Below are positions 6,088 to 64,000 of a stretch of DNA of 64,000 bases, piece by piece. The position numbers were made by a program, and so were the translations under genes. The notes beneath the pieces were generated by a model. The model was not told where the DNA came from, did not search any database, and saw only the letters and a list, made by a program, of their open reading frames with translations. Position 1 is the first letter of the stretch; each line of letters begins with the position of its first letter. Source of the stretch: a candidate division TM6 bacterium SOIL31 (GTDB lineage Bacteria; Babelota; Babeliae; Babelales; Vermiphilaceae); NCBI GenBank assembly GCA_001468865.1, contig LDIY01000006.1, forward strand, positions 21,233 through 85,232. Reading direction: 5' to 3'.

Positions 6088-6215
6088 AGATTTACTCTCT
6101 CCTTTTTTTATTAAATTAAAGATCATCTATCATATCACGATACAATCGAATTATAGCATGATTAACATTCTTCTTTGTGATATATTCACTCAAATCAATA
6201 ATAAAGGAGCCTTTC

Positions 6216-7229
6216 ATGCAAAAAAGAATTTTACTTTTCTGTTTTATTACCAGCGCCATGCAGATCAATGGAATGAAACGACCACACGCGACAACCGCAG
6301 CACTTACTGCGCCAAAAAAGAGCTTTCGTAAAAAGGCGTATATTTCTACATCAATAACAACTTCAGAAGCTGAGAAACATACTATACTATTTGATATAGG
6401 ATTACTGCCGCCCGAGCTTCAAAATTCCATTATAAGCTATGCAAGCAAGCGCCCCAACGCGCCAAACCCAAAAACAGCGATCCAACTCATTTGTAACCTC
6501 ACTCTTATCAGTCCCCACCTAGCCCAACAAATGAAATCTTTATCTTACTGCGATGAAATCATTGATAACGTTGCCCATCAATATTGCTGCTCCCATGAAA
6601 CAATTGCAAAGTATCTCAATTCGCCTGCAGCAAATAGACGTTTAAGCTTACAATATCGATTAATGGATTTGTGCTTCAGTGACCCTAAAAACAGTAGGTC
6701 GAATAGTCGCCTAGAAAAACTTCTTGCCAAAGGTTGCTCTTTCACTTTTACCTATAACTATAAAACCGAGCAAAAAAATGCGCTGATGATATCATGCATC
6801 AACCCCCACGATATGCGATCTCTTTTTATTGAAAAAGGAGCTGATATTAATGCGGCAACTACGTATGGACAGACTCTTTTAATGAAGTTGACAACATATC
6901 CCGTCAATTATAATAAGGTGTATGAGCTTCTGAAAGACCCTCACCTTGACCCTAACAAACAAAATAAACGAGGAGAAACAGCGCTCTTATGCGCTCTACG
7001 TTATAGAAAAACAAGACATTATGACCCCCTCTTTGCCCATATAATAAAAAAACTTCTGAAACGTGGCGCTGATCCTGAATTACCTGATAAAAAAGGCATT
7101 ACTCCCCGAAAAATTGCTTTCGCCCGCGGAATCCGGTCTATCATTGATCTCATCGAGGAAGCAATCCTAAAAAAATCTCGTATCTTATCCCAACACCATC
7201 CTCTCTCCCCACAAAACCCTTTAAACTAA
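6216..7229 (+). CDS. exported F-box-like / ankyrin-repeat protein
   Basis: A 337-residue paralogue of the protein at 2984. The start is the ATG preceded by AAAGGAG (6203-6209). Signal peptide 1-19 ends before MKRPH. A basic, Thr/Ala-rich segment runs to about 55. An F-box-like motif follows (LLPPELQNSIISYAS, about 63-77, helix to about 110). The linker has YCCSHETI and ANRRLSLQ (about 117-146). A FTFTY motif precedes weak ankyrin repeats (about 195-325: KNALMISCI, KGADINAATTYGQTLLM, RGETALLCAL, RGADPELPDKKGITPRKIA). Predicted role: protein-protein contact outside the bacterial cytoplasm, possibly on host proteins. The F-box call is a pattern judgement. Confidence 0.78.
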   Translation: MQKRILLFCFITSAMQINGMKRPHATTAALTAPKKSFRKKAYISTSITTSEAEKHTILFDIGLLPPELQNSIISYASKRPNAPNPKTAIQLICNLTLISPHLAQQMKSLSYCDEIIDNVAHQYCCSHETIAKYLNSPAANRRLSLQYRLMDLCFSDPKNSRSNSRLEKLLAKGCSFTFTYNYKTEQKNALMISCINPHDMRSLFIEKGADINAATTYGQTLLMKLTTYPVNYNKVYELLKDPHLDPNKQNKRGETALLCALRYRKTRHYDPLFAHIIKKLLKRGADPELPDKKGITPRKIAFARGIRSIIDLIEEAILKKSRILSQHHPLSPQNPLN

Positions 7230-10417: not shown

Positions 10418-10921
10418 TTGTAGAATTACCTCACACGCCTCTTGAACAGAAACAACAGAAGTATCAATAATTAAATCAATGGGCCACGTAGAACTTTTAT
10501 CAAAAGAGCTCATAACAAAATCCCGACACCGTGCAGCTCTCTGTGCACTACGCTGCAAATAGTGAGTACGTTTTGTATCTCGCTCTAAAAGAATATCTAA
10601 AGGAGCAGTAACAATAATTTTAGTAATTGTTGCGGCTCCTTTTAATTTTTTTTCCATCTGAGGTTCATACGTATTTGTATCGATGATAACGTTTATATTG
10701 TTGCGTAAATACTCATTAGTTTTTGCTAGTAAAAGTTCTATATTTTCTTCTACTTCATCAAAATCTACCACCACCCATTCTTCTTTTTTTGCATTAAACT
10801 GCTTACATACATATTTTGAAAGCGTTGACTTACCAGCACAGGATGGTCCCATGAGTATGATTACTTGCGTAGATTCAATTCTCAGCACAAAGCAGCATAA
10901 AAATATAATGATATTTTTCAT
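10409..10921 (-). CDS. P-loop kinase-like protein with a predicted signal peptide
   Basis: A 170-residue protein. Residues 1-17 look like a signal peptide (MKNIIIFLCCFVLRIES). Directly after it comes a nucleoside/zeta-type kinase fold: Walker A GPSCAGKST (25-33), a VVVDFDEVEE acidic strand, VIIDTN and a lid with RxxxRAARCR. Similar folds include chloramphenicol phosphotransferase-like and zeta-toxin-like kinases, but the substrate cannot be read. If the N-terminus is cleaved, an ATP-using enzyme is exported, which is odd in the periplasm and sensible only beyond it. Alternatively the hydrophobic start is an anchor. The ATG overlaps the stop of the F-box/ankyrin gene (ATGA), so the two are translationally coupled. 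Confidence 0.78.
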   Translation of the reverse strand: MKNIIIFLCCFVLRIESTQVIILMGPSCAGKSTLSKYVCKQFNAKKEEWVVVDFDEVEENIELLLAKTNEYLRNNINVIIDTNTYEPQMEKKLKGAATITKIIVTAPLDILLERDTKRTHYLQRSAQRAARCRDFVMSSFDKSSTWPIDLIIDTSVVSVQEACEVILQLF

Positions 10922-11973
10922 TTGCTTCTGCTGTTAAAATCTACTGCCGCCTTTTGCAACAAATTAATAAGTAGTTGATTCCCACTTTCTTCAGCCAGTG
11001 CAAGCGGCGTTTTTCCATCCCTATTCATAGCCAGAGGATTTGCACCCTTTTCAAGTAACTGTTCTGCAATCATACAAATAAATGGAGCTCTTTGCATTTC
11101 CTGTTGGCAACCCTGATTGCAATGATTTTGACCAGAAGCATGGTTCTTGAGTCCATAAAAACAACAATGCAACGGTGTATCCTTATTACCATCTCGGTAA
11201 TTAACTTTGAATGCTTTATGTTGCAACAAATCAGAAATTACCGATGTATTAAAAAATCTTAAAGCTAACAGAGAGGCATTTTGTTTGGAAGGTATCCACA
11301 TATGGTCATTCCATCTAAATTTTGAGGATGTTAGGATATTAATATCAGCGCAATTGCTGATAAGCCATTGCGCTATTTCATCACTTTTTTTTAAAATGTT
11401 TAAGTATATCGGTACAGAATATCTCGGTACAAGCAGAATCTTAAGTAACACTGTTGGCACCTCTTTTTCATAAGTAAAATCTAAATCCAAGCCTAATGAT
11501 TTCATTTTATTGGCATCGCTGATAATAAAATTATGCCAATTGCAATCGGAATAAAAAAAGGCTCTTTGCAGGGCAAGCCGTTTATTGGCAGCTCTTGTGC
11601 ATAACATTCTCGCAACATCTATATCAGAACAACGATAGCGTTTAGAAAGCTGTTTAATCCATCCAAGAGTTCTTTGATTATCATTCACATAATCATTAAG
11701 AAATTTATTGGTACAAGCAAGCGCATTAAAAATTTGCGCTGCTTCTCTTAACGTTTCTGCGCTACTATGAGTTGCGATGAATCGAACAATATTTATGTCT
11801 ATCTCTTTTGGAAAATCAGGACGAAATGTTCCTCGATAAACATTAGTTTTTTCTATTTTTGGTCTTTCATAACAATACGACCTGGCGCGACGACATTTCA
11901 TTTTCGTCAACATCGCATGTGTGTGAATTGAAGAAATGCTGAAGATGATTAAGATGAGTGTTTTTTTGTTCAT
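10918..11973 (-). CDS. exported F-box-like / ankyrin-repeat protein
   Basis: A 351-residue member of the family at 2984 and 6216. Signal peptide 1-20 ends before MLTKMK; a basic Cys/Arg region follows. The F-box-like motif is FPKEIDINIVRFIATHSS (about 53-70) with a helix to FLNDYVND (about 97). The linker carries LSKRYRCSD and NKRLALQ (about 109-136), then LDLDFTY. Ankyrin-like repeats occupy about 190-345 (SLLALRFFN, DGNKDTPLHCCFYG, KGANPLAMNRDGKTPLALAEESGN). The start was placed at the ATG giving the signal peptide; the upstream open frame runs through a repeat element. It is coupled to the exported kinase downstream by an ATGA overlap. Confidence 0.8.
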   Translation of the reverse strand: MNKKTLILIIFSISSIHTHAMLTKMKCRRARSYCYERPKIEKTNVYRGTFRPDFPKEIDINIVRFIATHSSAETLREAAQIFNALACTNKFLNDYVNDNQRTLGWIKQLSKRYRCSDIDVARMLCTRAANKRLALQRAFFYSDCNWHNFIISDANKMKSLGLDLDFTYEKEVPTVLLKILLVPRYSVPIYLNILKKSDEIAQWLISNCADINILTSSKFRWNDHMWIPSKQNASLLALRFFNTSVISDLLQHKAFKVNYRDGNKDTPLHCCFYGLKNHASGQNHCNQGCQQEMQRAPFICMIAEQLLEKGANPLAMNRDGKTPLALAEESGNQLLINLLQKAAVDFNSRSK

Positions 11974-11992
11974 GATGATTTTCTTTTGTTTA

Positions 11993-12049
11993 ACCCTTCG
12001 ACACTTCCTCCTTCGCATAAAGCTTCGGAGGACACAGCAGGGCGAACGG
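11993..12049 (-). repeat. REP-like dispersed element (ACCC...CGG orientation)
   Basis: Begins ACCCTTCGACA and ends CAGGGCGAACGG. The ends match the paired elements near 17.8, 34.4 and 44.6 kb; the middle differs (CCTCCTTCG...CTTCGGAGG, itself palindromic). It lies just upstream of the ankyrin gene start. Confidence 0.7.
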
Positions 12050-12070
12050 GGTTGGGATTTTTCTTTTTTC

Positions 12071-12161
12071 CGTTCGTACTGATACTTCGTCAAGCTCAGT
12101 AGTAACGCCCGCTTGCTTGCCCGCAGAAGCTTTAGCGAAGGCGGGTCGAAGTATACGAACG
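12071..12161. repeat. second palindromic element next to the REP-like unit
   Basis: The ends are inverted copies: CGTTCGTAC at the left and GTATACGAACG at the right. An inner pair CGCCCGC / GCGGGTCG and AGCTTTAGCGAAGGCG are visible. It can fold into one long hairpin. It may be a composite of degenerate REP-like units. Confidence 0.5.
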
Positions 12162-34548: not shown

Positions 34549-35859
34549 ATGTCAACACAAAACAACACCATCTCGCTCGGATCAGCAATCATCATCAATA
34601 TGAACATCATCATCGGTTCTGGTGTTTTTATTAACACCACCGAACTTGCTCATCGCGCGGGTATTTTGGGAGGATTAAGTTATGTCCTTGTAGGAATTCT
34701 GATGTTTCCTCTCATACTCTCATTCGTAAAACTTTTAGAATATTATCCAAGCGGTGGGTTTTACGCATTTTGCAGCAGCTCACTTCATCCGATTATTGGA
34801 TTTATTAATACCTGGTGTTATTTCTTTGCAAAGTTATCTTCCGCGACCCTTTCTATCCATATTTTTACCCTACTTGTACAAAAAACATTTCCCACCCTTA
34901 CTATAATTAACCCCATCATCTTCGACCTTGCGGTTCTTGGCTGCTTGCTGGCCCTCAATATGCTTAACGTCAAAACCGGAAGCAGAATTCAAAGTTGGGT
35001 GATGATCTTCAAATTATTTCCTCTTTTTTTTGTTATTACCTCAGGTATTATACTCTTAAACAGCAGTCATATAACAGCCGTTGATGCATTATGGTCAGGT
35101 ATTCCTTCAACTATTCCGCTTGTTTTGCATGCATTGCTTGGTTTTGAAGTAGCATGTGTGATCAGTAGAAACATTGAAAATCCTCGCATCAATGGTCCGC
35201 GCGCCATACTTTTTTCCTATGCAGCAGTGATTGTTTTATTCGTTGCATATCAAACTATTTTTTATAGTCTTATCGGCACCGATCTTGCCATGCAAATTGA
35301 TTATCGCGGAGCGTTTCCTTTACTCATTAGTAAATTGGGTATCAGTGAGCATCTGCGCGATATCCTTGGACATCTTATTCATCTTGCTATTGCAACATCT
35401 GCATTAAGCGCCGCATTTGGTATTATTTATGCAAATCTCTGGAATTTATATTCCCTTGCGGAACTGAAGCACACCATTGCTCCAGCATTTATTATGCAGC
35501 GCAATAGCTTTAGTATTCCTTTTGTGTGCGTACTCGCACAAGGTGCCATCATGATTATCTATTTATTCACCATTTTAGGCATACAAACAACATTCCAACA
35601 GCTCAGCGCATGTGGGGCAACCATTACCTACACATTAAGCATTCTGGGCTTACTCGCAACGCTCTACAAAAAAAATAAATCTTTGTGGACGCCAATATTG
35701 GGATTGGTGAATTGTGCAATTTTACTGAGTGCATCTGCCTATGCGATGCTCATTACACACAATCCATTACCATTACAATTATTACTAGGAATTATTATTT
35801 TCGGTGTTATCATGTATGCAATATCAGGAAAATCAACATCAACAAAAGGCCAATCATGA
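34549..35859 (+). CDS. APC-superfamily amino-acid permease
   Basis: A 436-residue transporter with about 12 membrane helices. Helix 1 carries IIIGSGVFINT, the substrate-binding break of the LeuT fold; helix 6 region has LHALLGFEVACVISRNIENPR. Likely an amino-acid importer or exchanger; the substrate is unknown. A TTG two codons upstream is less likely than this ATG (AGAAGG site at 34533). Its stop overlaps the start of the first small exported protein (ATGA), placing the transporter at the head of that operon. Confidence 0.88.
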   Translation: MSTQNNTISLGSAIIINMNIIIGSGVFINTTELAHRAGILGGLSYVLVGILMFPLILSFVKLLEYYPSGGFYAFCSSSLHPIIGFINTWCYFFAKLSSATLSIHIFTLLVQKTFPTLTIINPIIFDLAVLGCLLALNMLNVKTGSRIQSWVMIFKLFPLFFVITSGIILLNSSHITAVDALWSGIPSTIPLVLHALLGFEVACVISRNIENPRINGPRAILFSYAAVIVLFVAYQTIFYSLIGTDLAMQIDYRGAFPLLISKLGISEHLRDILGHLIHLAIATSALSAAFGIIYANLWNLYSLAELKHTIAPAFIMQRNSFSIPFVCVLAQGAIMIIYLFTILGIQTTFQQLSACGATITYTLSILGLLATLYKKNKSLWTPILGLVNCAILLSASAYAMLITHNPLPLQLLLGIIIFGVIMYAISGKSTSTKGQS

Positions 35860-36281
35860 ACAAATTATGCATCGCAATAATATTACTTTTTACATTCAAC
35901 ATCGCATCAGCTATGAACTTCTTGTGTGAGTTACCATGTAAAGAAGTTATCGAAGATCGCTTATATTGGGCAATTAGAGAACGATTTGATCAATCTTTGA
36001 GTTTTCAGTTTATGCAAGCAACAAATTTGCATAACATGGCTAAGCAACGCTATAAACCCTTGATTATTGCAAGCCGTGTTGATGGGGCGGTAGGCACATT
36101 TTGTGATAGAATGTCTGATGGTGATATAAGCCATAAAATCTTCAATATAAAAAAACCTCTTCAACAAACCATTCTTTACCAAATGTTAAAAGATTATCCG
36201 ATGGTAATAGTAGCATTGCAAAATAATTATAACCAACTACCCTATGATCTTTCACTGCTTAATGTAAAAGTGGATTACTGA
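35856..36281 (+). CDS. small exported protein, divergent member of the 36-38 kb array
   Basis: A 141-residue protein. Signal peptide 1-19 ends before MNFLCEL. Then one copy of the array domain (about 24-125): a CKEVIEDRL opening, a run with MAKQRYKPL, and MLKDYPMVIVALQ near the end. The start is the ATG overlapping the permease stop. Weakest sequence match in the array. Confidence 0.65.
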   Translation: MNKLCIAIILLFTFNIASAMNFLCELPCKEVIEDRLYWAIRERFDQSLSFQFMQATNLHNMAKQRYKPLIIASRVDGAVGTFCDRMSDGDISHKIFNIKKPLQQTILYQMLKDYPMVIVALQNNYNQLPYDLSLLNVKVDY

Positions 36282-36324
36282 GAAAAAAAATTATTTCTAA
36301 AAAATAGTAACCGGAGAGCTTTTC

Positions 36325-36999
36325 ATGAAACATTTTATGCTTGCATCCCTACTTTTATTTACTGCATCTATAAGTTTATCTGCCATGGAACCAGCAGGTG
36401 AAATTAGCCCCCGACTACCATCAGAACAAGTTTTGCGTGAGCGCTTGGGCACCATTTCAGAATGCAAACATTTCATTGAAAACAGTCCCATCATTTCCCT
36501 GTTTGCAGGACAAAAAAAATATGCTCCTGCAGTTTACATGCTCATTAGCTTTGAAAAAGATATGTATGCAGAAAAATTCCAAAAAATGCCTGGTATAGCT
36601 AAGTTAGTTTTTCAGGTAGAAGCAGTAAAACCAAAGATGGTAGAACTCATTTTACAAGATCACCCAGCTGCAATAGAATTTCTTAAAAAAGAAAAAATTA
36701 TGACGAGTCCCATTCAACTTGCATCAGAAAAGGCTTTGCACAAGGATTTCAGCAATAAAGGACTTGATCATTTTGCGGACAAAACTTCTGTTGTAAAACT
36801 TCTGGCGGATCAAAAAAAATATCCCTCTGAAGTTTTCATGATAGTGGTGACCCAAATGGAGGAATATATTAACTTATTACCCGCTAATCCGCTCATAAGA
36901 AAAGCACAAATGACTCTCATTCCTACCATCATCGACATTATTTTTGAAAAAGAGCCTCAGGCAATAGAATGGTTAAAGATGGATGGTTGGCTGAAATAA
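36325..36999 (+). CDS. exported protein with two copies of the array domain
   Basis: A 224-residue protein. Signal peptide 1-20 ends before MEPAGEIS. Copy one (about 31-125): PSEQVLRERLG...IISLFAGQKKYAPAVYML...LILQDHPAAIEFLKKE. Copy two (about 128-224): SEKALHKDFSNKGLDHFADKTSV (split as LHKDFSNKGLDHFADK), KLLADQKKYPSEVFMIV, IIFEKEPQAIEWLKMDGWLK. The duplication is direct and the copies have diverged. Helical throughout; no catalytic motif seen. A CGGAGAG site precedes the ATG. Its stop overlaps the next start by one base (TAATG). Confidence 0.72.
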   Translation: MKHFMLASLLLFTASISLSAMEPAGEISPRLPSEQVLRERLGTISECKHFIENSPIISLFAGQKKYAPAVYMLISFEKDMYAEKFQKMPGIAKLVFQVEAVKPKMVELILQDHPAAIEFLKKEKIMTSPIQLASEKALHKDFSNKGLDHFADKTSVVKLLADQKKYPSEVFMIVVTQMEEYINLLPANPLIRKAQMTLIPTIIDIIFEKEPQAIEWLKMDGWLK

Positions 37000-37379
37000 T
37001 GAAATACATTCTTTGTGTTTCTCTCTTTTTGCTCAATATTACCAGTTTTACAGCTGAGCATATTGATTACCATATTGATTATGGCGATATTCCTCCTATG
37101 TCATTAATAACCACCAGAATTACAGTATCTCCACCCGATGTACTTAAAGATCGATTAGAAAGATATGGATTTTCTGACCTTGCAAAAACGACCAATATAG
37201 CAGAAGAAATTGGAGGACAAAGAAAAACTTTGATCACGCTCTTCCAACAACTCGAGCACATTTTTAAACAATACAGCGCCGACAATGTTATCACAAAACC
37301 TCAAAAGGTTTTTATACGATGTGTTGTCAATGACTTGGCAGCACTCGAGAAATTAGAAATCGAGGGATATTTAAAGTAA
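36999..37379 (+). CDS. small exported protein, one array domain
   Basis: A 126-residue protein. Signal peptide 1-18. One array domain (about 43-126): PPDVLKDRLERYGFSDLAK, then IGGQRKTLITLFQQL and VVNDLAALEKLEIEGYLK. The start is the ATG sharing a base with the previous stop, so it is translationally coupled. Confidence 0.68.
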   Translation: MKYILCVSLFLLNITSFTAEHIDYHIDYGDIPPMSLITTRITVSPPDVLKDRLERYGFSDLAKTTNIAEEIGGQRKTLITLFQQLEHIFKQYSADNVITKPQKVFIRCVVNDLAALEKLEIEGYLK

Positions 37380-37409
37380 AAAAACTCATTCAAAAAAAAA
37401 GGAATAATA

Positions 37410-37769
37410 ATGAAATACGTCCTACTCTTTCCCTTGCTCTCTCTCACTTCTATTTTCAGTATGGATCGCGAATATCAACTCCCTTCCTCAGAAGAAATCA
37501 AACAACGATTAATTCTTAAAGGTTTTCCATTTTTTGCACATAATAGCTCCATTGGTCAGTTAGGTGGTCAATCTTGGCGACCCCGACCACTTGCTACGCA
37601 AGTAAATTCAATAGTGACTCACTATATGGTGGCTCACTATCATGAACAACCTCGCCCCACTACACCACGAGAATTCCAGATCATGAGAGTATTATTAAAA
37701 AATCATCCAAATGTCCTTGAAAGTCTAAAAAAAGAGTATTCTGACGATCGTTTTATTCGAGAAGATTAG
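37410..37769 (+). CDS. small exported protein, one array domain
   Basis: A 119-residue protein. Signal peptide 1-17 ends before MDREY. One array domain (about 24-112): PSSEEIKQRLILKGFPFFAH, IGQLGGQSWRPRPLATQV and LLKNHPNVLESLKKEYS. AAAAAGGAATAATA precedes the ATG. It ends 7 bases from the convergent mraY stop; no terminator hairpin is evident between them. Confidence 0.68.
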   Translation: MKYVLLFPLLSLTSIFSMDREYQLPSSEEIKQRLILKGFPFFAHNSSIGQLGGQSWRPRPLATQVNSIVTHYMVAHYHEQPRPTTPREFQIMRVLLKNHPNVLESLKKEYSDDRFIRED

Positions 37770-37776
37770 GTATTTC

Positions 37777-38841
37777 TTATCGCAATTTCAGTGTAATCAA
37801 CGTTAGTAGGCACAAAACCAAAGAAATAATACCAAAACGAGTAGTAATTCGCGATTCTGGCCATCCCATTAGTTCAAAATGATGATGGATAGGAGCCATT
37901 TTAAACATTCTTCTACCAAAATGACGCACTGAAAGCACTTGCAGTATTACCGACACCGTTTCAAGCACAAAAAGCCCCCCAGAAATGGCGAGCAAGAGCT
38001 CTTGTTTGGCCATAATTGCCATTAAAGCAAGCCCTGCCCCCAAGGCCAAAGACCCCACATCTCCCATAAAAATCTGAGCTGGATAGGTGTTATACCACAA
38101 AAATCCTAAGGATGATCCAATTAAAATGGCTCCTATGATGGCAATTTCGGCCGTTCCTGCAAAGGGAATGTGAAGATAGTGTGCTAGGCCATAATGACCC
38201 GCAAGATAGCAAATGAGGGCAAATGTGGCGAAATTGGGCAAAAGTGAGCCAATAGCAAGCCCGTCAAGACCATCTGTTAGATTTACCGCATTACTACAGC
38301 CTACGATGATAAATACAGCCCAGGGAACAAAAAAGAAGCCCAAATCTGGCCTACAATGCTTAAAAAAGGGAAAAATGAGCTCAGTAGAGAAAGGCGTGAA
38401 AAAAAGGAGGCCAACGGCCACCAAAGAGGCGATTAAAAGCTGCAATTTGAACTTTGTACCCGATGAAATACCCTTTTGAGCGTGTATTTTATTCCAATCG
38501 TCCCAAAAACCTACCATTCCAAAGCCCATAATGCAGAATAAGAAGATCCATACCTGCATATTTGCTAAATCGCACCATAAAAGCGTATTAATGAGCACAA
38601 TAGCTAGGATAAACACCCCCCCCATGGTAGGCATACTATCTTTAGCCCGATGGCTCTCTGGGGTGCTTTCTCGCGCTTTTGACCGGAAAAAACGCTGAGA
38701 AATGGCTAAAAAATAGTCCCCACCGAGCAAAAAACAGAATAAAGAGCTCAGCAAAGACGCTACTGCACGCACACTTACATAGTGCATTACATTAAAAAAA
38801 GGCCAATAAAACTTTAAATAATATGATAAATGGTATATCAT
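37777..38841 (-). CDS. mraY: phospho-N-acetylmuramoyl-pentapeptide transferase
   Basis: A 354-residue integral membrane enzyme with about ten helices that links UDP-MurNAc-pentapeptide to the undecaprenyl carrier (lipid I). Visible: STPESHRAKDSMPTMGGVFI (in part), GFWDDWNK with catalytic Asp residues, SNAVNLTDGLDGLA, FMGDVGSLALG and the C-terminal MAPIHHHFELMGWPE. The usual mur/fts neighbours are absent. The carrier comes from the uppS product. Confidence 0.96.
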   Translation of the reverse strand: MIYHLSYYLKFYWPFFNVMHYVSVRAVASLLSSLFCFLLGGDYFLAISQRFFRSKARESTPESHRAKDSMPTMGGVFILAIVLINTLLWCDLANMQVWIFLFCIMGFGMVGFWDDWNKIHAQKGISSGTKFKLQLLIASLVAVGLLFFTPFSTELIFPFFKHCRPDLGFFFVPWAVFIIVGCSNAVNLTDGLDGLAIGSLLPNFATFALICYLAGHYGLAHYLHIPFAGTAEIAIIGAILIGSSLGFLWYNTYPAQIFMGDVGSLALGAGLALMAIMAKQELLLAISGGLFVLETVSVILQVLSVRHFGRRMFKMAPIHHHFELMGWPESRITTRFGIISLVLCLLTLITLKLR

Positions 38842-44775: not shown

Positions 44776-45816
44776 ATGAAGCACATATTCACCCTCCTCA
44801 TAACATCTCTTATTTTTATATCACCATGCTTGAGCATGGAACCTGCAAGGAAAACGCGCGAAGCGCAAATCATCCCGCTCAAAGGACTGATAAATCCCAG
44901 CGTAATTGCATTTCCAACTCAAAGCCATGTGGTGATCGGCGGCGCAAATGATTGTATACTTTTTTCCCAGATTTCTGGTTCTCCATCATATTCAACAAAA
45001 TCAATTGTAATGTTTAAAACATTTTCTGTTAATGCACATAAACAAGAAGGACTTGTTGTTATAAACAATAAAGAAGAAATGATCGTATATGCGCCTCGAA
45101 CAAATAGAATACTATGCTCAAATCATAGCCTTGCAGAAAAAAATATCGCCGCAGCATTTGGTCCCGATAAAACTATTATTACCACTAATCCCACGGAGAG
45201 ATCATTAATGATATTTGATTATGGGACAAATAGTCTATCTCTCAAACAACGTATCTCCACTACTATCTTTAACCCAGACAGCTTATTTTTTACCAGTCCA
45301 ATATCGTGTCAACCTAGTTCTTCAAAAATTGCCTATCTTAATTATAAAAAACAAGCTGCTATAAGGGAACTTTCAGGTTATGCCCAAACAAAAGAATCAG
45401 GAAGCTATAAAGATATTCTTCTGAGTCCTTATGGTAAATGGGTTGCGCTTAATGAAACCCTAGGATGTACTATCTGGAACCCTCGAACTGATGTTTCATA
45501 TGAAATAGATGATATATATAAACCGGAAAGTCACTTCGGTACCAAAATAAAATTATATATCAAATCAATGGCATTTCATCCTAATGGCTGCTTAGCCTTA
45601 CTGACCTCACATGCGGGCGGTTATACGCTCAAATATTTTAATCTTAACAGAAGAGTATTGATCAATGATGAAGATATTCCTTTAAAAAAAATACTCGGCG
45701 ATACCAAACTATTAGATATTTCTCCTGAAGGCACCGATGTTGTTATTCTCGGTGAAAACGAATTTTTGATTGCACCGGTTCCCTTGACAGTTCTTGCTCA
45801 AACGGATGCAAACTAA
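44776..45816 (+). CDS. exported beta-propeller-like (WD40-like) protein
   Basis: A 346-residue protein. Signal peptide 1-20 ends before MEPARKT. The rest consists of short strand-rich repeats of about 40 residues: NPSVIAFPTQSHVVIGGAND (in part), EGLVVINNKEEMIVYAPRTN, YKDILLSPYGKWVALNETLGCTIWNP (in parts), IKSMAFHPNGCLALLTSHAG, LLDISPEGTDVVILGENEF. The (S/A)FHPNG, LSPYGK and ISPEG turns are WD40-like. A second one lies at 46659, with lgt between. Probably a protein-binding scaffold outside the cytoplasm. Ends one base before the lgt ATG. Confidence 0.7.
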   Translation: MKHIFTLLITSLIFISPCLSMEPARKTREAQIIPLKGLINPSVIAFPTQSHVVIGGANDCILFSQISGSPSYSTKSIVMFKTFSVNAHKQEGLVVINNKEEMIVYAPRTNRILCSNHSLAEKNIAAAFGPDKTIITTNPTERSLMIFDYGTNSLSLKQRISTTIFNPDSLFFTSPISCQPSSSKIAYLNYKKQAAIRELSGYAQTKESGSYKDILLSPYGKWVALNETLGCTIWNPRTDVSYEIDDIYKPESHFGTKIKLYIKSMAFHPNGCLALLTSHAGGYTLKYFNLNRRVLINDEDIPLKKILGDTKLLDISPEGTDVVILGENEFLIAPVPLTVLAQTDAN

Positions 45817-46658: not shown

Positions 46659-47741
46659 ATGAAAAAATTGTTTCACCTTATTTTCTTTTTTCATCTCTTT
46701 TCTACTTCATCTCTTTCTAGTATGGAACCAGAAAAACCAGTTCGTAAAAAAATATACTCTATGGCCTGCTTACCCAATAATACTATTGCTCTTGCAAGTG
46801 AACAAGGTTGCGATCTCATCACTAATCCACTTTCACCAACCGATCGTATCGTAAAGAACGTGCGCAAGCAACCAACCTTTCGTCTTATAAGCAATAAAAA
46901 TAAAGATAAAATATGTCTTTGTGGTGCTAAGGAGTGTAAAATATATGGGATAAATATCAAAACAAAACTCGGTTCTCATTGTATCGCTTCTTATTCTATG
47001 ATGAACTGTGAAGCTTTTTCAGTTGTTTTCAACCCTATCGATGATTCTTTGATTTCACGCCAAGATGATGAGCTCTTTATCGATAAAACCAAACGTTACG
47101 TTTTACCATACGTCGGAGATAACCGTTTTCCCCTTGACTGCCATCCCAACGGAAAAGAGATTCTTTATCCACGTTCTAATTCAACATTAACAGTGCGAAA
47201 CATTCATGGGGGCCCTGGTTACGATTATTCACCAGACTGGCGCGTTCAACGTTGTTTTTATAGTCCCAATAATGGTCATCATATTGCCATTATTACCGAG
47301 GTTGGGAATCTTTTTATATATAAACCAAAATATAATAAATCTATCTTGTTTAAATCTGCACGCCAGATTCATGATGCAACATTTTTACCGGATCACAAAT
47401 CTGTGGCATTAATTGACGAATTCAACTATATACATTTTTGGGAATTCACCACCGGTAAGAGATCGCACATATCTACTTTTGGTGACCAAGAAATTTCATC
47501 GAGAAAAAAGATAGTTATCTCTCCAAACGAATCAGAATTTGCTGTTCTTATCGAAAACCAATGTTTTATGGGAAATATCCCGGCATACTTCACCAAAAAC
47601 AAAATGCTTTTTGTCTGCTGGATCTTACAACAATACTCCCAAAAAAATAACGACTTTCTTTTGCCTGAAATCATTGGCCTATTCATAAAGAGCATGGGTG
47701 CACTACAAGAAAAACCTATGCTTACTTTGATTGCTCTTTAA
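46659..47741 (+). CDS. exported beta-propeller-like (WD40-like) protein with a C-terminal helical tail
   Basis: A 360-residue paralogue of the protein at 44776. Signal peptide 1-21 ends before MEPEKPV. Repeats include IYSMACLPNNTIALASEQG, FPLDCHPNGKEILYPRSNST, RCFYSPNNGHHIAIITEVGN, IHDATFLPDHKSVALIDEFN (each in part) and VISPNESEFAVLIE. After the propeller a helical tail (about 308-355) contains LLPEIIGLFIKSMG, which recalls an F-box-like helix at the C-terminus. That reading is speculative. It has its own promoter. Confidence 0.7.
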   Translation: MKKLFHLIFFFHLFSTSSLSSMEPEKPVRKKIYSMACLPNNTIALASEQGCDLITNPLSPTDRIVKNVRKQPTFRLISNKNKDKICLCGAKECKIYGINIKTKLGSHCIASYSMMNCEAFSVVFNPIDDSLISRQDDELFIDKTKRYVLPYVGDNRFPLDCHPNGKEILYPRSNSTLTVRNIHGGPGYDYSPDWRVQRCFYSPNNGHHIAIITEVGNLFIYKPKYNKSILFKSARQIHDATFLPDHKSVALIDEFNYIHFWEFTTGKRSHISTFGDQEISSRKKIVISPNESEFAVLIENQCFMGNIPAYFTKNKMLFVCWILQQYSQKNNDFLLPEIIGLFIKSMGALQEKPMLTLIAL

Positions 47742-52554: not shown

Positions 52555-53835
52555 ATGGAACCTCTCAGTCAGCTGGTTACCCCCTTTATTTTATTGTGCA
52601 TAGCACTTTGTTTTCGTGCGACGTTATCATTTCTAGAGACAAGTATTACCGCGTTGCGTCTTTTTAGAATTAAAGAACTTGCCCATACCACCACTCAATA
52701 CTTGCCCTTGCTTCAAACATTAGAAAAAAACCCACAGCGCGTATTAGTAACCATTATTGTTGCAAATAGCTTTGTGGACGTATCTGCTGCATCGCTGGCA
52801 ACCTTTATTATGAGTACCATTTTTACTTATATTGGACTCTCGAGCAGCTTTGGATTTACACTCGGTATTACTATTGCTTCTTTAAGTATTGTAGTATTTG
52901 GTGAAATTTTACCAAAAAGTTTTGCCCGCGTACGCAGCGAGCAAGCATTTAAATCGGTTCTCTGGCTTATCAATTGCATTTATTACACGCTTTATCCGTT
53001 TGTGGTATTTTTAGTAAAATTTTCTGATTATATCATGGCTAAATTGGGTGGAAAAGATGCGGAAAGCTCTTCATCTCAATGGATCTCTTCCGAACGAGAA
53101 ATTCAATTTCTTATCAATTATATTCATGAAAAAGGATTGCTGGAACTTGAAAAAAGAGAAATGCTTCAAAACGTGTTTCAACTCGGTAACACCCCCATCA
53201 ACGAAGTAATGGTCCCGGCTGAAAAAATCGTTTCACTGCACGTTGATACGCCAATGGAAAAAGTATTCGCGTTCTTCTCAGAACATTCTTATACGCGTAT
53301 TCCTGTTTACGAGAATGCTCCGGATAATATCATTGGCATGGTCCACCAAAAAGATCTTTTTATTATGTTCTCTAAGGGTGAAAAGAAATTATTGCAACAA
53401 ATTGTTCGCCCTATCATGTTTGTACCAGAAACTATGAAGGTCATCCAGCTTTTGGGTAAATTCAGGGAAAAACAAGCCCATATTGCAATGGTTGTTTCTG
53501 ATTCTGGTGCATTGACAGGCCTTGTTACACTTGAAGATCTTATCGAAGAAATTGTTGGTGAAATTAGCGATGAACATGAATCAACGGTGGGTAAAATAAT
53601 GCCGATGGGAGAAGATGAATGGCTGGTGGATGCCACCATTACGCTTGAAGACTTGGGAACATTTTTGGGTATCATTTTTGTTAGCGAAGGGTCCATTTCT
53701 CTTGCAGGGTTTTTAACGGAATTATTTGAGCATGTTCCTCAAAAAGACGAAGAAATCATGTATAAAAACTTCCTGTTCCAGGTTCAGAAAGCAACTCCGT
53801 TGCACGTCCAATTTGTGCATATATTCCGTAAGTAA
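52555..53835 (+). CDS. HlyC/CorC-family membrane protein (CNNM/DUF21-CBS)
   Basis: A 426-residue protein. The N-terminal DUF21 membrane domain has about four helices (FLETSITALR, VANSFVDVSAASLATF, FGEILPKSFAR). Two CBS domains follow (about 220-340: VMVPAEKIVSL, YTRIPVYENAPDNIIGMVH, GALTGLVTLEDLIEEIVGEI, each in part), then a CorC_HlyC transporter-associated domain (about 350-426). Relatives export Mg2+ or Co2+; 'hemolysin' is a historical name. Starts 24 bases after rpoD. Confidence 0.92.
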   Translation: MEPLSQLVTPFILLCIALCFRATLSFLETSITALRLFRIKELAHTTTQYLPLLQTLEKNPQRVLVTIIVANSFVDVSAASLATFIMSTIFTYIGLSSSFGFTLGITIASLSIVVFGEILPKSFARVRSEQAFKSVLWLINCIYYTLYPFVVFLVKFSDYIMAKLGGKDAESSSSQWISSEREIQFLINYIHEKGLLELEKREMLQNVFQLGNTPINEVMVPAEKIVSLHVDTPMEKVFAFFSEHSYTRIPVYENAPDNIIGMVHQKDLFIMFSKGEKKLLQQIVRPIMFVPETMKVIQLLGKFREKQAHIAMVVSDSGALTGLVTLEDLIEEIVGEISDEHESTVGKIMPMGEDEWLVDATITLEDLGTFLGIIFVSEGSISLAGFLTELFEHVPQKDEEIMYKNFLFQVQKATPLHVQFVHIFRK

Positions 53836-53855
53836 TGTTTATTAAGAAAGTTCTT

Positions 53856-54266
53856 ATGAATATTCACGCAATACCCTTTAAAGCATTTCTCATTGCTTTC
53901 GCAACCCTCCATTCTTGTCATGCCTATTCTTCTGAAGTAAAACACCCATCAGACTTCATCCGTCCAAAAAAACATGAATTAATCGTAGCGAACAATACTC
54001 CCTTTTCCCTCCAACTACAATCGGAAACATCTTGTAGGGCGGAACATTTTCGCCCCCGAGAAACACGAAAAATAACTCCTACAAGCAAAGGATCTGATTT
54101 TACTTTTTCATTATTCAACAAGACTTTTATGAATCAGCCCTATTTCATAAGCTTTGCTACCAGCTATAAGCATCTTACCATTACACACGATATACATAGT
54201 TTTGATATTTTTATTGGAAAGAGACCAGAAGAATTTCTAACACAAATTCTATTCGAAGATGTATAA
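53856..54266 (+). CDS. small exported beta-rich protein
   Basis: A 136-residue protein. Signal peptide 1-23 (cleavage after CHA). The mature part is strand-rich: HELIVANNTPFSLQLQ, HFRPRETRKITP, NQPYFISFATSYKHLTITHD. It shares an N-x-(S/T/P) strand and a (F/L/I)xP turn with the proteins at 56442, 56860 and 57342. The ATG at 53856 with AAGAAAG before it is preferred; an ATG at 53835 overlaps the previous stop. Confidence 0.6.
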   Translation: MNIHAIPFKAFLIAFATLHSCHAYSSEVKHPSDFIRPKKHELIVANNTPFSLQLQSETSCRAEHFRPRETRKITPTSKGSDFTFSLFNKTFMNQPYFISFATSYKHLTITHDIHSFDIFIGKRPEEFLTQILFEDV

Positions 54267-54336
54267 ATATTTTATTGATCTTCTGATAGTAAGCATTTTA
54301 TAGTGACTACAAATGCTGAAAATAAGGAGATATTGT

Positions 54337-54786
54337 ATGAGATCTGTATTTTGCACCATCGCATGTATAGTCATAGCAACAACTATCACCGCCCCCTCTT
54401 TGGCACGACCAAAAAAAGAAAAAAAACCAAAACTCCAAACACATCAAAAAATTGAAAAACAAAAAGAATCTGATGATGAATCCCAGCAAGAAGATATGCT
54501 TTTAAGTGATCAGCCTTATCGTCCTAACCCTGTTATTATGGCAGGAGTGGGAGCAATTATGAATGGCGCACTACAAATTGCACAAGATCCCCACAATCGC
54601 CCCAATCTTGGTCATTCTATTGCAAGTATGGTCCATGGAATTATGACCATTGTGGTTGAAAAAATTGCAAAAAGAGATATGGATATTAATAACGCACACG
54701 CAATGGAAGAATGCTTACGAGAATTATCGGTAGATCTTGAAGAAGAGATAACTGAAATAATTAGCACCAAACAACTATTATCATAA
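54337..54786 (+). CDS. small exported protein with a basic/acidic linker and helical C-terminus
   Basis: A 149-residue protein. Signal peptide 1-23 (cleavage near SLA). A Lys-rich then Glu/Asp-rich linker (25-60) precedes a helical part (PNPVIMAGVGAIMNGALQIA, GHSIASMVHGIMTIVVEKIA, then ECLRELSVDLEEEITEI). The start lies 7 bases after AAGGAG. No family recognised. Confidence 0.65.
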   Translation: MRSVFCTIACIVIATTITAPSLARPKKEKKPKLQTHQKIEKQKESDDESQQEDMLLSDQPYRPNPVIMAGVGAIMNGALQIAQDPHNRPNLGHSIASMVHGIMTIVVEKIAKRDMDINNAHAMEECLRELSVDLEEEITEIISTKQLLS

Positions 54787-54892
54787 AGAAATAAAAAGTC
54801 CTGCGCTATTGCTATTTGCAGCTACGTTGATAAGATATTATTATTAAAGATTGTAATGAATATATTTAAACGTATCATTGATAGAAAAGCAT

Positions 54893-55390
54893 ATGAAAAT
54901 AACACGAAAAATAATTTTCCGAGCAAAATTAATTCTTGTTTCTCTTTCTGTAGCAATAATATACAATATTCATCCTGCTGAAAATAAATACTCCAAATAC
55001 TCGCCACTTAATCGCGTCACCATACATTATCACCCTTCGGTAGTTCACGAATTTCCCCTAGCAATAAAATTTACCACTCTGAAATGGAATAAAAAATTAC
55101 ACATGATTCAAGCTGTCTCAAAAATAGATCCAAGAAGCTCGTCCCCTATCAAAAATTATCTTATGCGCAAAGAAAACGGCACATCCTCTTCTCTTTTTGC
55201 GGTGCATGTTCCGTGGTCTGATAAGAAAGATAAACTCATTACAGCAGAAGATGGCGATCATTTTTTTATTTCTTATAAAGCTAACGGCGAAGAGTGTTAT
55301 CTCTCCATTGGAAAAGAAAGTCCAAAAAAGTGCTTTGCCGATTATGAATTCGATAAAATTGTGTTTCTAACTATCCCTCGCAAGGATTGA
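54893..55390 (+). CDS. small exported protein, beta-rich
   Basis: A 165-residue protein. Signal sequence or anchor 1-28 (RKIIFRAKLILVSLSVAII). The mature part has strands such as RVTIHYHPSVVHEFPLAIKF, SSLFAVHVPWSDKKDK and YEFDKIVFLTIPRKD. The ATG was chosen over an upstream TTG at 54878. The ribosome site is weak (GAAAAG). Function unknown. Confidence 0.6.
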   Translation: MKITRKIIFRAKLILVSLSVAIIYNIHPAENKYSKYSPLNRVTIHYHPSVVHEFPLAIKFTTLKWNKKLHMIQAVSKIDPRSSSPIKNYLMRKENGTSSSLFAVHVPWSDKKDKLITAEDGDHFFISYKANGEECYLSIGKESPKKCFADYEFDKIVFLTIPRKD

Positions 55391-55524
55391 GATTTAAAGA
55401 ACGCTCACTCTTTTATTTTTTTTATTCTCTTTTTCCATCAATCGTATATATTGTTTCGCAAACCAAACTCTCAATTTATTACCTTTGGATTGTATAGTTT
55501 TACAATTATCACTAAGGATTTTCT

Positions 55525-56409
55525 ATGAAAATGATCCCATCTATTCACTTTTTCAGTGCGTTACTTATTACCTTTTTTTGCCATGCAGCAGAAATCACTC
55601 CCGAGCTTTATCAACAACAAGGAATAATTTTTTATCGAAAAGCGGTATCAGAAGATATTCCTTATATCACCAAACTTATTAATAAAAAAGCCCACTTAGA
55701 TCACAAAAAAATAGTAATTGTACCTAAAAAGTTTAGAGAACAATCGGTAACGTCAGCTGTTGCCGCACAGAAAGTATATATCGCTGAAAATACACAGGAT
55801 GATATTATCGCGTTTAAAAAATTATTTATTGTTACCGATCCAGCGGAATATCATGTAATCACTCATTATGAAATCAGGTGCAAAGGACCTAAAAGCAAGC
55901 CTGTGTATTATAATGAAATATTTACAGAAACAACACCAACCCTTCCATACATAAAACCCACAAATGTTGACCTTCACTTTTCATTGGAAAATAGCATTGT
56001 CATGTATGTAGGTGGGGATTATACTCACCCTGCGTATCGTGATAGTGGCATTAATTCAGAGCTGACGCGTGTTGCATTTGATCTTATAAAAAAAGATGTG
56101 GTCGCGGCACTTGCTAAAAAAAAACCCGCAAAACTCATTCTTTTATACGGTCTAACCAAAGAAAACGCAGGAGAAGGATCAGGCACTCTATTTAATCGTA
56201 CGAAAGCAATTTCTCGCGCGTTTATGCAATTTATAGAAGAGATAGCTGCTGAACACAATTATGAAAATGATCATTTCTTGCATCATACTTGTTACCACTC
56301 ATACATGCCAACATTTGATCCAGAAAGCGAAGAATGGATTCGTCTTTCCGATCAGCATTCAGTTGCAGGATATGGCAACGTTTTACTTTTTCCTCTACAA
56401 AAAAAATAG
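55525..56409 (+). CDS. exported GNAT-like acetyltransferase domain protein
   Basis: A 294-residue protein. Signal peptide 1-21 (cleavage near CHAA). The mature part follows the GNAT fold order: FYRKAVSEDIPYITKLI (beta1-alpha1), KVYIAENTQDDIIAFKKLFI (beta2-3), then VMYVGGDYTHPAYRDSGIN (about 159-177), which matches the acetyl-CoA loop pattern V-x-P-x-Y-R-x-x-G-I. Helix and strand elements follow (SRAFMQFIEEIA, GYGNVLLFPL). An acetyl-CoA enzyme outside the cytoplasm would have no known donor, so a target in a host cell or loss of activity should be considered. AAGGA lies before the ATG. By pattern only. Confidence 0.65.
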   Translation: MKMIPSIHFFSALLITFFCHAAEITPELYQQQGIIFYRKAVSEDIPYITKLINKKAHLDHKKIVIVPKKFREQSVTSAVAAQKVYIAENTQDDIIAFKKLFIVTDPAEYHVITHYEIRCKGPKSKPVYYNEIFTETTPTLPYIKPTNVDLHFSLENSIVMYVGGDYTHPAYRDSGINSELTRVAFDLIKKDVVAALAKKKPAKLILLYGLTKENAGEGSGTLFNRTKAISRAFMQFIEEIAAEHNYENDHFLHHTCYHSYMPTFDPESEEWIRLSDQHSVAGYGNVLLFPLQKK

Positions 56410-56441
56410 GATATTTATATGAACAATCGTAAAGGAACCTT

Positions 56442-56792
56442 ATGAAATTTATTATCGCAAGCTTGTTATTACTTTCTTTGTATTCATGCGCATCAGCATG
56501 TGAAGGAAGGGTTCCACAAATACATACTCAGTCAGAACCAGCAACAATATCAGCACAGATCAAAAATCAATTATCCCACGCTATTATAATTCGCACTAAT
56601 GGGATGCACAACGTTACTCTTGAACCTGGTCACTGTATGCTTACTCATTCCGATGCTCGAGAAATGGAAATTATGCCGGCTCCTATTCCGGTTCTTGTTA
56701 ATGAAAAAAAAGATGACAAACCCAATCGCCCACAGATCACCAAAAAACGAGAACTATCATCAGGCCCAGAAGAGCCGTGTATTCAACAATAA
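56442..56792 (+). CDS. small exported protein, beta-rich
   Basis: A 116-residue protein. Signal peptide about 1-19 (CASACEG; the Cys pair could also be a weak lipobox). The core reads TISAQIKNQLSHAIIIR and VTLEPGHCMLTHSD, like the strand pairs of its neighbours; the tail is Lys/Pro/Glu-rich. AAAGGAAC precedes the ATG. Confidence 0.62.
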   Translation: MKFIIASLLLLSLYSCASACEGRVPQIHTQSEPATISAQIKNQLSHAIIIRTNGMHNVTLEPGHCMLTHSDAREMEIMPAPIPVLVNEKKDDKPNRPQITKKRELSSGPEEPCIQQ

Positions 56793-56859
56793 GGATTAAT
56801 ACGAATAACAAACAAAGCCTCCGAGAAAAACGATTAAACACTTAAAATTAAACAATAAC

Positions 56860-57261
56860 ATGAAACATATCATCTTGAGCTTCGCTTTATTTCCCCTCTG
56901 CATAATGGCGTCAGAAACAGCTATAGAAACCGCAGAGATTTCTATACGTAACACATCCAAATATTTGACTATTGTTTCACTTGTTCAGCACAAAGGAAAG
57001 ATGGAGATTATGAAGCGTTGGAAGATAGAGCCATCAGATTCACAAAATATCTTAATTAAAAAATCGCCAACAAGGAAACCTCAATTTCTCCTTTTTGATT
57101 TTGATGGATATCAAGTAAGATCTCCCTTTACCGTCAGTCAAAGAATTATTATTCGGCAATCCGTTCCTACTGTACCAAGCAAACCCAAAAAACCTTTACT
57201 CATTAATCTTGATTGGGCTGATTCATCAGAAGTAGGCTCAGATGGTGATTATGAGTCATAA
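56860..57261 (+). CDS. small exported protein, beta-rich
   Basis: A 133-residue protein. Signal peptide 1-17. The core has AEISIRNTSKYLTIVSLVQ, KRWKIEPSDSQNILIKK and FLLFDFDGYQVRSPFTVSQR (in part), the same N-x-S strand and I-x-P turn as the proteins at 53856, 56442 and 57342. Acidic C-terminus. No clear ribosome site. Confidence 0.62.
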   Translation: MKHIILSFALFPLCIMASETAIETAEISIRNTSKYLTIVSLVQHKGKMEIMKRWKIEPSDSQNILIKKSPTRKPQFLLFDFDGYQVRSPFTVSQRIIIRQSVPTVPSKPKKPLLINLDWADSSEVGSDGDYES

Positions 57262-57266
57262 CTCAT

Positions 57267-57295
57267 TTGACAACTTTTCATTATTTTTTGATACT
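57267..57295 (+). promoter_or_regulatory. promoter for the gene at 57342
   Basis: TTGACA, 17 bases, GATACT; the -35 box is perfect and the spacing optimal. It starts 6 bases after the previous stop. Confidence 0.6.
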
Positions 57296-57341
57296 ATGGT
57301 CGTGAATAAAAAACTTCAATCTCTCTATTAAATAAGGAAAA

Positions 57342-57884
57342 ATGATGAAGATGAAACATCTTGCGCTCGGCATCGGACTATGTACCGGTACGATTTTCGC
57401 TGCCGAAAACGGGCGCGTGATAAAATTCGAAAATAAATCAGGTCGTAACCTTGAAGTTTTCTACACCAATCCACACGGCATTCAAAGCTATCTGTTTTTC
57501 AATCACGAAAGCTTTTGTAATAAAGCAATTGCCCAGAATAAACAAAATGTTGTTGTTACCTGGCAAGAACAGAATATGCAACATAAATTTTCGCTCAAAT
57601 ATAGGGATCCTGCAGTAGTTATTTTGCCGGCAATCGCTATAAGATTCACACAACCACAGAACTTCGCACATACTACTTTTCTCACTTCGGATTTATCAAT
57701 TACCCATACTCACGTGGTGCCAGCAATAAAATCACATGTAATAATATCTAATGTACAACCTAAATCGGAATCAAGTTCTTCCTCGTCAGAAGATGATGAT
57801 AATGTACCACCTCAAATATTACCAATTGTACCACTCCTATCTGAATCAAGTTCAACTTCTTCATCTGAGTCGTCGGATGACTGA
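57342..57884 (+). CDS. small exported protein with Ser/Asp-rich tail
   Basis: A 180-residue protein. Signal peptide about 1-20 (cleavage near FAA). Beta-rich core (RVIKFENKSGRNLEVFY, HKFSLKYRDPAVVILPAI) with the N-x-S strand of its neighbours. The last 40 residues are two Ser/Glu/Asp runs around a PPQILPIVPLL segment, presumably disordered and highly acidic. AAGGAAA precedes tandem ATGs; the first is annotated. A strong terminator follows. Confidence 0.65.
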   Translation: MMKMKHLALGIGLCTGTIFAAENGRVIKFENKSGRNLEVFYTNPHGIQSYLFFNHESFCNKAIAQNKQNVVVTWQEQNMQHKFSLKYRDPAVVILPAIAIRFTQPQNFAHTTFLTSDLSITHTHVVPAIKSHVIISNVQPKSESSSSSSEDDDNVPPQILPIVPLLSESSSTSSSESSDD

Positions 57885-62605: not shown

Positions 62606-64000
62606 TTACTTTTCACCGTTATGTTTCTGCAAAATTCTCATCAAATCTAAATTTCCATTTTCTTGTGCATAATCATAAGCTGTTTTTTCCAGGTTATCTA
62701 CCAAATCAACATCAGCTCCGTTTTTGATAAGCTTCCTAACCACATCGGAACATCTTAGCTCCCAGCACCGTTCAGAATAGTTCGCATAGTGATGAAGCAC
62801 TGAACATCCATCGTTATCAACCGCATTAACATCCCCTCCTGCAGCCAACAGCAAATCAATAACCTCGATTGTGAATCTATAACACCTGCGGTTTATCGCA
62901 GCAGCCATTAAAGCAGTTCGTCCCAGAGAAGTACGCGCATTCACGTCAGCTTTTGCAGCAAGCAGTTTTGCAACAATTTCAGGTTTTTCATATGCACTAA
63001 AAAGCGATGTAAAACCATTCGGGTCAAGCACATCAAGATTAACATTGCGTTCGATCAGATAATCAATTGCCGGTTCACTTTCAGACGCAACTGCAAAATA
63101 TAGCAAAGAAGCTCCGCTCTCATTACGCGAATCAACCTCTCCTGAAAATAATAATGTCATTATCATTTCAAAAATTTTACCATCTAATTCAGGGTTTTGT
63201 ACTGCACGGGTTCTCCCAAAACCACTTCCACTTTCACAACAAGCCTGTCCCCAAATACCAAAACGTTCCTTGAATGATAGATCATAATTTTTGACAATAA
63301 ATTTTTCAAGTAAATCAATGCTGTAGTTTTCCAGCATAGCTAATATAATACCTTGCGTATACCGATTACCTACGGAACTAATTATATCAAGGTCACCGGA
63401 ATCACAAGCACATTTCAGTATATTCCTTTTATCACATCCAAATTCATACTTAGGATAATCTCCCTTTTGATAACCAGACCAGGTAGTGTTAAATGGCAAA
63501 TCTGTTGAAAGCAACATCATCTTGGCTGCAAGAAGATTTTTTTCCACGAGAAATGTTTTTAATTTACAGGAATTAACTTTTATTGCTGCTTTTTTCATTG
63601 CTTTAGCCAGTTTTGTATCCAACGCATCAAGCATTCCCATTTCTTTTTTTCCATACTCACCTGCATACATATCAATGCAATCTTCATCTGTTATATTTTT
63701 GCCATCCAAAACATTACTAACAGCTGCACTCCGAGTGACGCCCCCAAATATCCACAAATCCTCATAAAGCCGCCATAAATGGCGAAACATAGCCAACCCA
63801 TGTTTATTATTATCAGGATCTTTCTTATATTCTCTTGCATAAAATGCTAACGCTTTTGTACCTGCATCAAAATTATCTTTATGAGACAAGTAAACACACA
63901 TGGGCGACGAACATTTTGGATCGGTTGGATCTTTGCAAATTATTTGATGGTGGAAATCCTGCCGAGAACAATGACACACTCTTCCCAACGCACCGCATGT
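62606..64000 (-). CDS. ankyrin-repeat protein, 5' end outside the window
   Basis: The frame stays open to the window edge (the codons before TTG at 63988 are also open), so the N-terminus is missing. About 465 residues are visible. The first 140 are Cys-rich (VCHCSRQDFHH, SSPMCVYLS) with no F-box visible. Weak helix pairs follow (about 145-240), then four to five good ankyrin repeats: SGASLLYFAVASESEPAIDYL (in part), LDPNGFTSLFSAYEKPEIV, AKADVNARTSLGRTALMAAA, GGDVNAVDNDGCSVLHHYAN, GADVDLVDNLEKTAYDYAQ. Probably exported like its relatives, but this cannot be checked here. Confidence 0.8.
   Translation of the reverse strand, partial: TCGALGRVCHCSRQDFHHQIICKDPTDPKCSSPMCVYLSHKDNFDAGTKALAFYAREYKKDPDNNKHGLAMFRHLWRLYEDLWIFGGVTRSAAVSNVLDGKNITDEDCIDMYAGEYGKKEMGMLDALDTKLAKAMKKAAIKVNSCKLKTFLVEKNLLAAKMMLLSTDLPFNTTWSGYQKGDYPKYEFGCDKRNILKCACDSGDLDIISSVGNRYTQGIILAMLENYSIDLLEKFIVKNYDLSFKERFGIWGQACCESGSGFGRTRAVQNPELDGKIFEMIMTLLFSGEVDSRNESGASLLYFAVASESEPAIDYLIERNVNLDVLDPNGFTSLFSAYEKPEIVAKLLAAKADVNARTSLGRTALMAAAINRRCYRFTIEVIDLLLAAGGDVNAVDNDGCSVLHHYANYSERCWELRCSDVVRKLIKNGADVDLVDNLEKTAYDYAQENGNLDLMRILQKHNGEK

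Follow-up and report, generated by a model that had tools for sequence, protein, structure and literature searches.

Organization of the array

Parasites of protists make up the phylum Babelota, which is widespread and has large secretomes of proteins without a name. We analyzed 64,000 nucleotides (nt) from one of its members, candidate division TM6 bacterium SOIL31 (contig LDIY01000006.1; the whole stretch is referred to below as the window and its genome as G000), in which four consecutive forward-strand genes encode small, probably exported proteins carrying five copies of one domain of about 90 residues. Gene G1 (35856..36281) encodes a protein of 141 amino acids with one unit (unit 1, 35928..36221), while G2 (36325..36999; 224 amino acids) holds two in tandem, units 2a (36412..36690) and 2b (36712..36978). 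One unit each is found in G3 (36999..37379; 126 amino acids; unit 3, 37119..37358) and G4 (37410..37769; 119 amino acids; unit 4, 37473..37733). Signal-peptide-like starts cover approximately residues 1 to 19, 1 to 20, 1 to 19, and 1 to 17 of G1 to G4, respectively, with the cleavage position in G1 placed by eye. The genes nearly touch: the stop codon of an amino acid permease gene overlaps the ATG of G1 (ATGA), a 43-nt gap follows G1, G2 and G3 overlap in TAATG, and 30 nt lie between G3 and G4. The genes, their coordinates, and their close spacing, with the permease overlap, agree with an original prediction made from the letters of the window before any database was searched. G3 could also be read from an earlier ATG at 36969, but this longer form is improbable, given that the signal-peptide-like start sits at 36999. 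Promoter and terminator sites did not exceed those in shuffled sequences (10 versus a mean of 12.2 and 0 versus 2.3, respectively). The GC content (35.6% versus 37.7% for the window) places the array only at the 10th percentile of equal-sized windows, so there is no clear sign of a recent foreign origin.

Homology of the five units

Pairwise identity among the units is 14 to 26%, and chance likeness among them is excluded. A profile of 10 units, all from other genomes, recovered the five, which confirms that four consecutive genes carry copies of a single unit of about 90 residues. E values ranged from 7.5e-15 (2b) through 6.3e-14 (2a), 3.8e-10 (unit 3), and 9.4e-10 (unit 4) to 1.2e-4 for unit 1, the weakest member (6.4e-5 over the whole open reading frame [ORF] of G1), and the best nonmember among the 162 ORFs of the window reached 0.21. 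When the units were compared directly, 6 of the 10 pairs beat shuffled sequences. The closest pair by far was 2a and 2b (z of 15.5), bearing out the two copies that had been proposed for the gene at 36325, followed by 2b-3, 2a-4, 1-4, 2b-4, and 3-4 (z of 4 to 7); pairs 1-2a, 1-2b, 1-3, and 2a-3 were no better than shuffles. Profiles built from the remaining four window units found 2a (2.4e-8), 2b (1e-5), and 4 (1.1e-7) and missed unit 3 (0.068) and unit 1 (no match up to an E value of 1), so the membership of G3 and G1 needs the relatives in other genomes. The common alignment on which the original prediction had staked its claim is thus obtained for all five units through the outside profile and not from the window by itself. 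The opening and closing motifs that it had described turned out to be loose, since the opening P...RL is diverged in 2b and the closing proline is absent from G3.

Profiles that left out one genome at a time recovered 45 of 45 units (worst E value of 3.7e-5, with the best reversed-ORF decoy at 0.16); these 45 had been chosen because earlier profiles matched them, and duplicates and pieces shorter than 55 residues had been removed. Conservation is highest at Leu, Pro, Thr, and Tyr and at small or hydrophobic residues; the main conserved polar positions are a D/N before the closing proline (23 of 30) and a Q/K in the middle of the unit (28 of 36).

Distribution in Babelota

The unit defines a genuine domain family. 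With the two-unit protein G2 alone as the query, 8 of 35 genomes matched at E values up to 1, its own included, and three of the other seven did so at 2e-5 or better. A profile from a 15-row alignment placed the family in 29 of 101 Babelota genomes (E value of 0.01), and one from 36 rows placed it in 28 of 101 (47 matches at 0.001; 27 genomes besides G000), although the E values from these enlarged alignments are partly circular, as their rows were drawn from the same genomes. Profile searches found no further units in G000 beyond the five of the window and no family match in G001, a genome of the same genus. Protein database searches returned 5 and 11 clusters; two of these, P0003 and P0005, represent proteins of the window itself. 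Cluster P0014 carries the TM6 name, and P0009, labeled Epsilonproteobacteria, lies about one residue away from a gene of the Babelota genome G095. The family apparently reaches the cultured Chromulinavorax destructans (G055).

Known families and predicted fold

No credible match to the window proteins was found in Pfam, NCBIfam, or PHROG. Searching Pfam with 36 units gave only single-member matches at chance level (best E value of 0.012), the best PDB sequence match had an E value of 0.13, and profiles of ankyrin and leucine-rich repeats (LRR) matched neither the four window proteins nor the 36 units. PADLOC had no match for the window proteins either. Its profile CARF7, a DUF2103-linked CARF, weakly matched two members of a single, C. 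destructans-type subgroup (P0012 at 3.6e-5 and P0007 at 0.0046); the other 16 of the 18 members scanned did not match, and we rejected a CARF identity for the family.

An AlphaFold2 model of unit 2b (36703-36996) is all-helical, with a predicted local distance difference test score (pLDDT) of 96.6 and a predicted template modeling score (pTM) of 0.87, while the whole two-unit protein, modeled without an alignment, gave no usable structure (pLDDT of 36.9). Foldseek searches with the 2b model found nothing at an E value of 0.001 (best of 1.6 in the PDB and 0.78 among viral models), and no match stood out in the VIA structure search. These missing matches do not establish a new fold. Our literature search found no paper naming the family in its title or the start of its abstract, which is not proof that none exists. 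With no credible library match, relatives in 27 other genomes, and signal-peptide-like starts in most members (see below), the proposal of an undescribed exported family stands. What we describe is a domain family absent from the searched libraries, in a setting that is already known, the lineage-specific secretomes of intracellular bacteria.

Export

Export across the inner membrane is likely, judging from the N termini. Our own heuristic for signal peptides (a positive start, a hydrophobic stretch, and then small residues) picked out all four window genes, as the original prediction had anticipated, and 22 of 26 family relatives in the fetched loci, compared with 3% of shuffled family sequences; the count leaves out five further family ORFs that the simple gene caller had discarded. 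The four misses comprise two likely fragments or misannotated starts (L053 and L056), a borderline case (L047), and a C. destructans member with a longer hydrophobic start (L059). A lipobox-like motif appears in only 1 of 30 family proteins. Two secretin matches were found in the window's genome.

Duplication and rate of change

Clustered units, lying within about 1.2 kb of another, were found in 8 of the 28 genomes (G000, G013, G009, G071, G033, G094, G039, and G055). Elsewhere, a unit sits at the end of a 642-amino-acid protein in G022 and near the start of a 288-amino-acid protein in G079, neither of which had a Pfam match. A tree of 39 units has little resolution (4 of the 36 inner branches are starred, and the bootstrap of the tree did not converge); it pairs 2a with 2b (95/82) and gives no supported position to the remaining window units. 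The tree therefore bears out local duplication, originally proposed for the whole array, in the case of the halves of G2 but does not show a single local origin of the four genes.

Traces of how such arrays might diversify come from three tandem paralogs in G013 (L041:3545-4649), with near-identical leaders and divergent bodies. In their first 42 codons, which cover the leader and the first helix, g3 and g4 agree at 125 of 126 nt, whereas beyond this point only 117 of 228 (51%) agree. The identity of g2 to both is 97 to 98% across 21 codons, falling to 75% in the following 20 codons and to 61 to 64% thereafter. The sharp border after codon 42 in g3 and g4 suggests recombination that keeps the leaders alike, although strong divergence of young duplicates could also have produced the mosaic. 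Copy number varies within one genus, where an array that follows a tRNA synthetase gene (supported by Pfam as class I and presumably ileS) is two genes long in G033 and three genes long in G071. A clear ortholog relationship was seen for a single pair, of 102 codons, with a ratio of nonsynonymous to synonymous substitution rates (dN/dS) of 0.27; the adjoining synthetase gene had 0.04 and the next long gene had 0.08. This pair has changed faster than its neighbors, yet under constraint.

The permease/mraY junction

The array fills the slot (35859-37777) between the amino acid permease gene (34549..35859, forward strand; PF13520, 7e-24) and a convergent mraY (37777..38841, reverse strand; TIGR00445, 1.6e-106), neither of which we judged to be part of the system. 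The permease was found in 95 of 101 genomes and in 26 of the 28 with the family, yet among these 26 it adjoins a family member only in G000. G026 has a member 2.8 kb from the permease in a different slot, between genes that we take to be yhhQ-like and tgt-like. In the remaining genomes, even the closest family copies and the permease occupy different contigs or are more than 180 kb apart, although contig breaks might hide a few linkages. Conservation of the permease linkage, which the original prediction had proposed to check, thus failed. We rejected a partnership with the permease on this ground, and the link is positional.

We compared 28 permease neighborhoods besides the window (L120-L148), mostly from the window's own taxonomic family. 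Permease and mraY were convergent in 25 of the 25 that held both, and three pieces lacked mraY. The junction, counting the window, was 170 bp or shorter in 13 of 26 genomes and longer than 300 bp in the other 13, and its content varied from genome to genome. Repeat proteins were among the fillings: ankyrin proteins in G015 (next to a gene that looks by eye like an alanine racemase) and G097, LRR proteins in G005, and a pentapeptide-repeat protein with a signal-peptide-like start in G010. Others held DUF3179 (G095), Fic and AAA (G006), or EF-P and NusB (G099), and exported orphans were found in G100 and G055, with SOD in G016, and with a second permease in G017. The same-genus genome G001 has, instead of the array, what looks by eye like the broken remnant of a hicAB-like toxin-antitoxin pair (L120:6581-7029). 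Neighboring junctions were filled in 4 of 13 (spoU-permease) and 2 of 11 (tgt-spoU) cases, versus 13 of 26 for permease/mraY, while mraY-mnmG exceeded 300 bp in 23 of 23; these figures are no more than suggestive of a special insertion hotspot at permease/mraY. An association with ankyrin proteins also occurs in C. destructans, where two members with long hydrophobic starts, one of them prepilin-like by eye, flank an ankyrin-repeat gene (G055, L059:7075-8918).

Proposed function and alternative explanations

The family resembles the exported ankyrin and LRR proteins of Babelota (C. destructans and Babela massiliensis) in being predicted to be exported, patchily distributed, and made of helix-rich or repeat-based likely binders, and such proteins occupy the same junction in the three genomes mentioned above. 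It differs from them in that the unit is a compact module of about 90 residues rather than a short repeat and lacks a match to their profiles. Because Leu, Pro, Thr, and Tyr account for most of the best-conserved positions, the unit more likely binds a partner than acts as an enzyme. Being compact, probably nonenzymatic, fast changing, arranged in tandem, and sharing a slot with ankyrin and LRR proteins, the units are best read as host-facing accessory binding modules, and we give roughly even credence to the full proposal, that these are accessory, fast-evolving, nonenzymatic binding proteins released toward the protist host. Four likely Sec-exported proteins would then be assembled from five units, each a predicted all-helical module whose conserved core may act as a scaffold while the variable remainder binds a partner. 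The proteins might exit the periplasm, given the two secretin genes, and the partner would be a host molecule. New specificities could arise by tandem duplication in which the leaders stay similar while the bodies diverge, in a gene family that comes and goes, here at an exchangeable site between permease and mraY. A passage of PMC6561590 describes the C. destructans secretome as rich in ORFans and ankyrin proteins, and PMC12172432 presents the isolates described as strictly intracellular in protists.

Several observations weigh against this proposal. The heuristic for signal peptides is also passed by 101 of 260 (39%) of the other genes at these loci, so that export by itself is a common trait of the phylum. 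In C. destructans, the longer hydrophobic start of two members may anchor them in the membrane. The junction also holds plainly cytoplasmic genes in some genomes (SOD, EF-P, NusB, Fic, and AAA), and its location therefore says little about a host role. The leader/body mosaic was seen in one genome only, and the dN/dS value comes from a single pair. Exit from the periplasm, delivery, and the host partner are our inferences.

Part of this evidence fits periplasmic modules that stay inside the bacterium, for instance as small helical chaperones or as adaptors of the envelope. A signal-peptide-like start carries a protein across the inner membrane only, 29 of the 30 proteins lack a lipobox, the C. 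destructans pair looks membrane anchored, and in G022 the unit terminates a long protein. We nevertheless find this explanation doubtful, since the family is present in just 28 of 101 genomes and missing from the same-genus G001, unlike housekeeping envelope parts, differs in copy number within a genus, and changes faster than the neighboring genes. Arrays of immunity or inhibitor paralogs are a known kind of system, and here each exported paralog would neutralize one variant of a toxin or hydrolase from a rival microbe or the host. Exported helical proteins that are small, arranged in diverged tandem sets, and quick to turn over would fit, but no cognate toxin gene was recognized beside the listed arrays (whose neighbors mostly have no profile annotation), and the window proteins had no PADLOC match, immunity families not having been searched one by one; we consider this explanation improbable. 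The remaining alternative concerns the fold and is compatible with any function, namely, that the unit has diverged far from some known class of small helical folds. Bromodomain-, SAM-, AHSP-, and RGS-like bundles, its weak structural neighbors, are alike in size and all-helical nature. The Foldseek, PDB, and Pfam results given above tend to speak against such an origin, which we regard as unlikely.

Returning to host-facing binding proteins, a bolder version would make the unit a new fold serving as a recognition module of Babelota, in which recombination preserves the leader and first helix, the rest diversifies, and lineage-specific sets occupy exchangeable slots; we hold this to be speculative and unlikely. 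A defined domain family in 28 of 101 genomes turns part of an uncharacterized secretome into one testable class with a predicted structure. It may also serve as a model for the diversification of exported, possibly host-facing proteins in these parasites.

Other features of the window

Inspection by eye revealed further candidates for exported proteins. Ankyrin-repeat-like proteins, most with signal-like starts, are encoded at 2984-4000, 6177-7229, 10918-12093, and 62606-63988. Two related-looking exported proteins, possibly beta-propeller-like (44776-45816 and 46659-47741), flank an lgt-like gene. A run of small genes at 53835-57884 combines signal-like starts with a shared short segment (N-x-[TS]...) and may be another tandem exported family.
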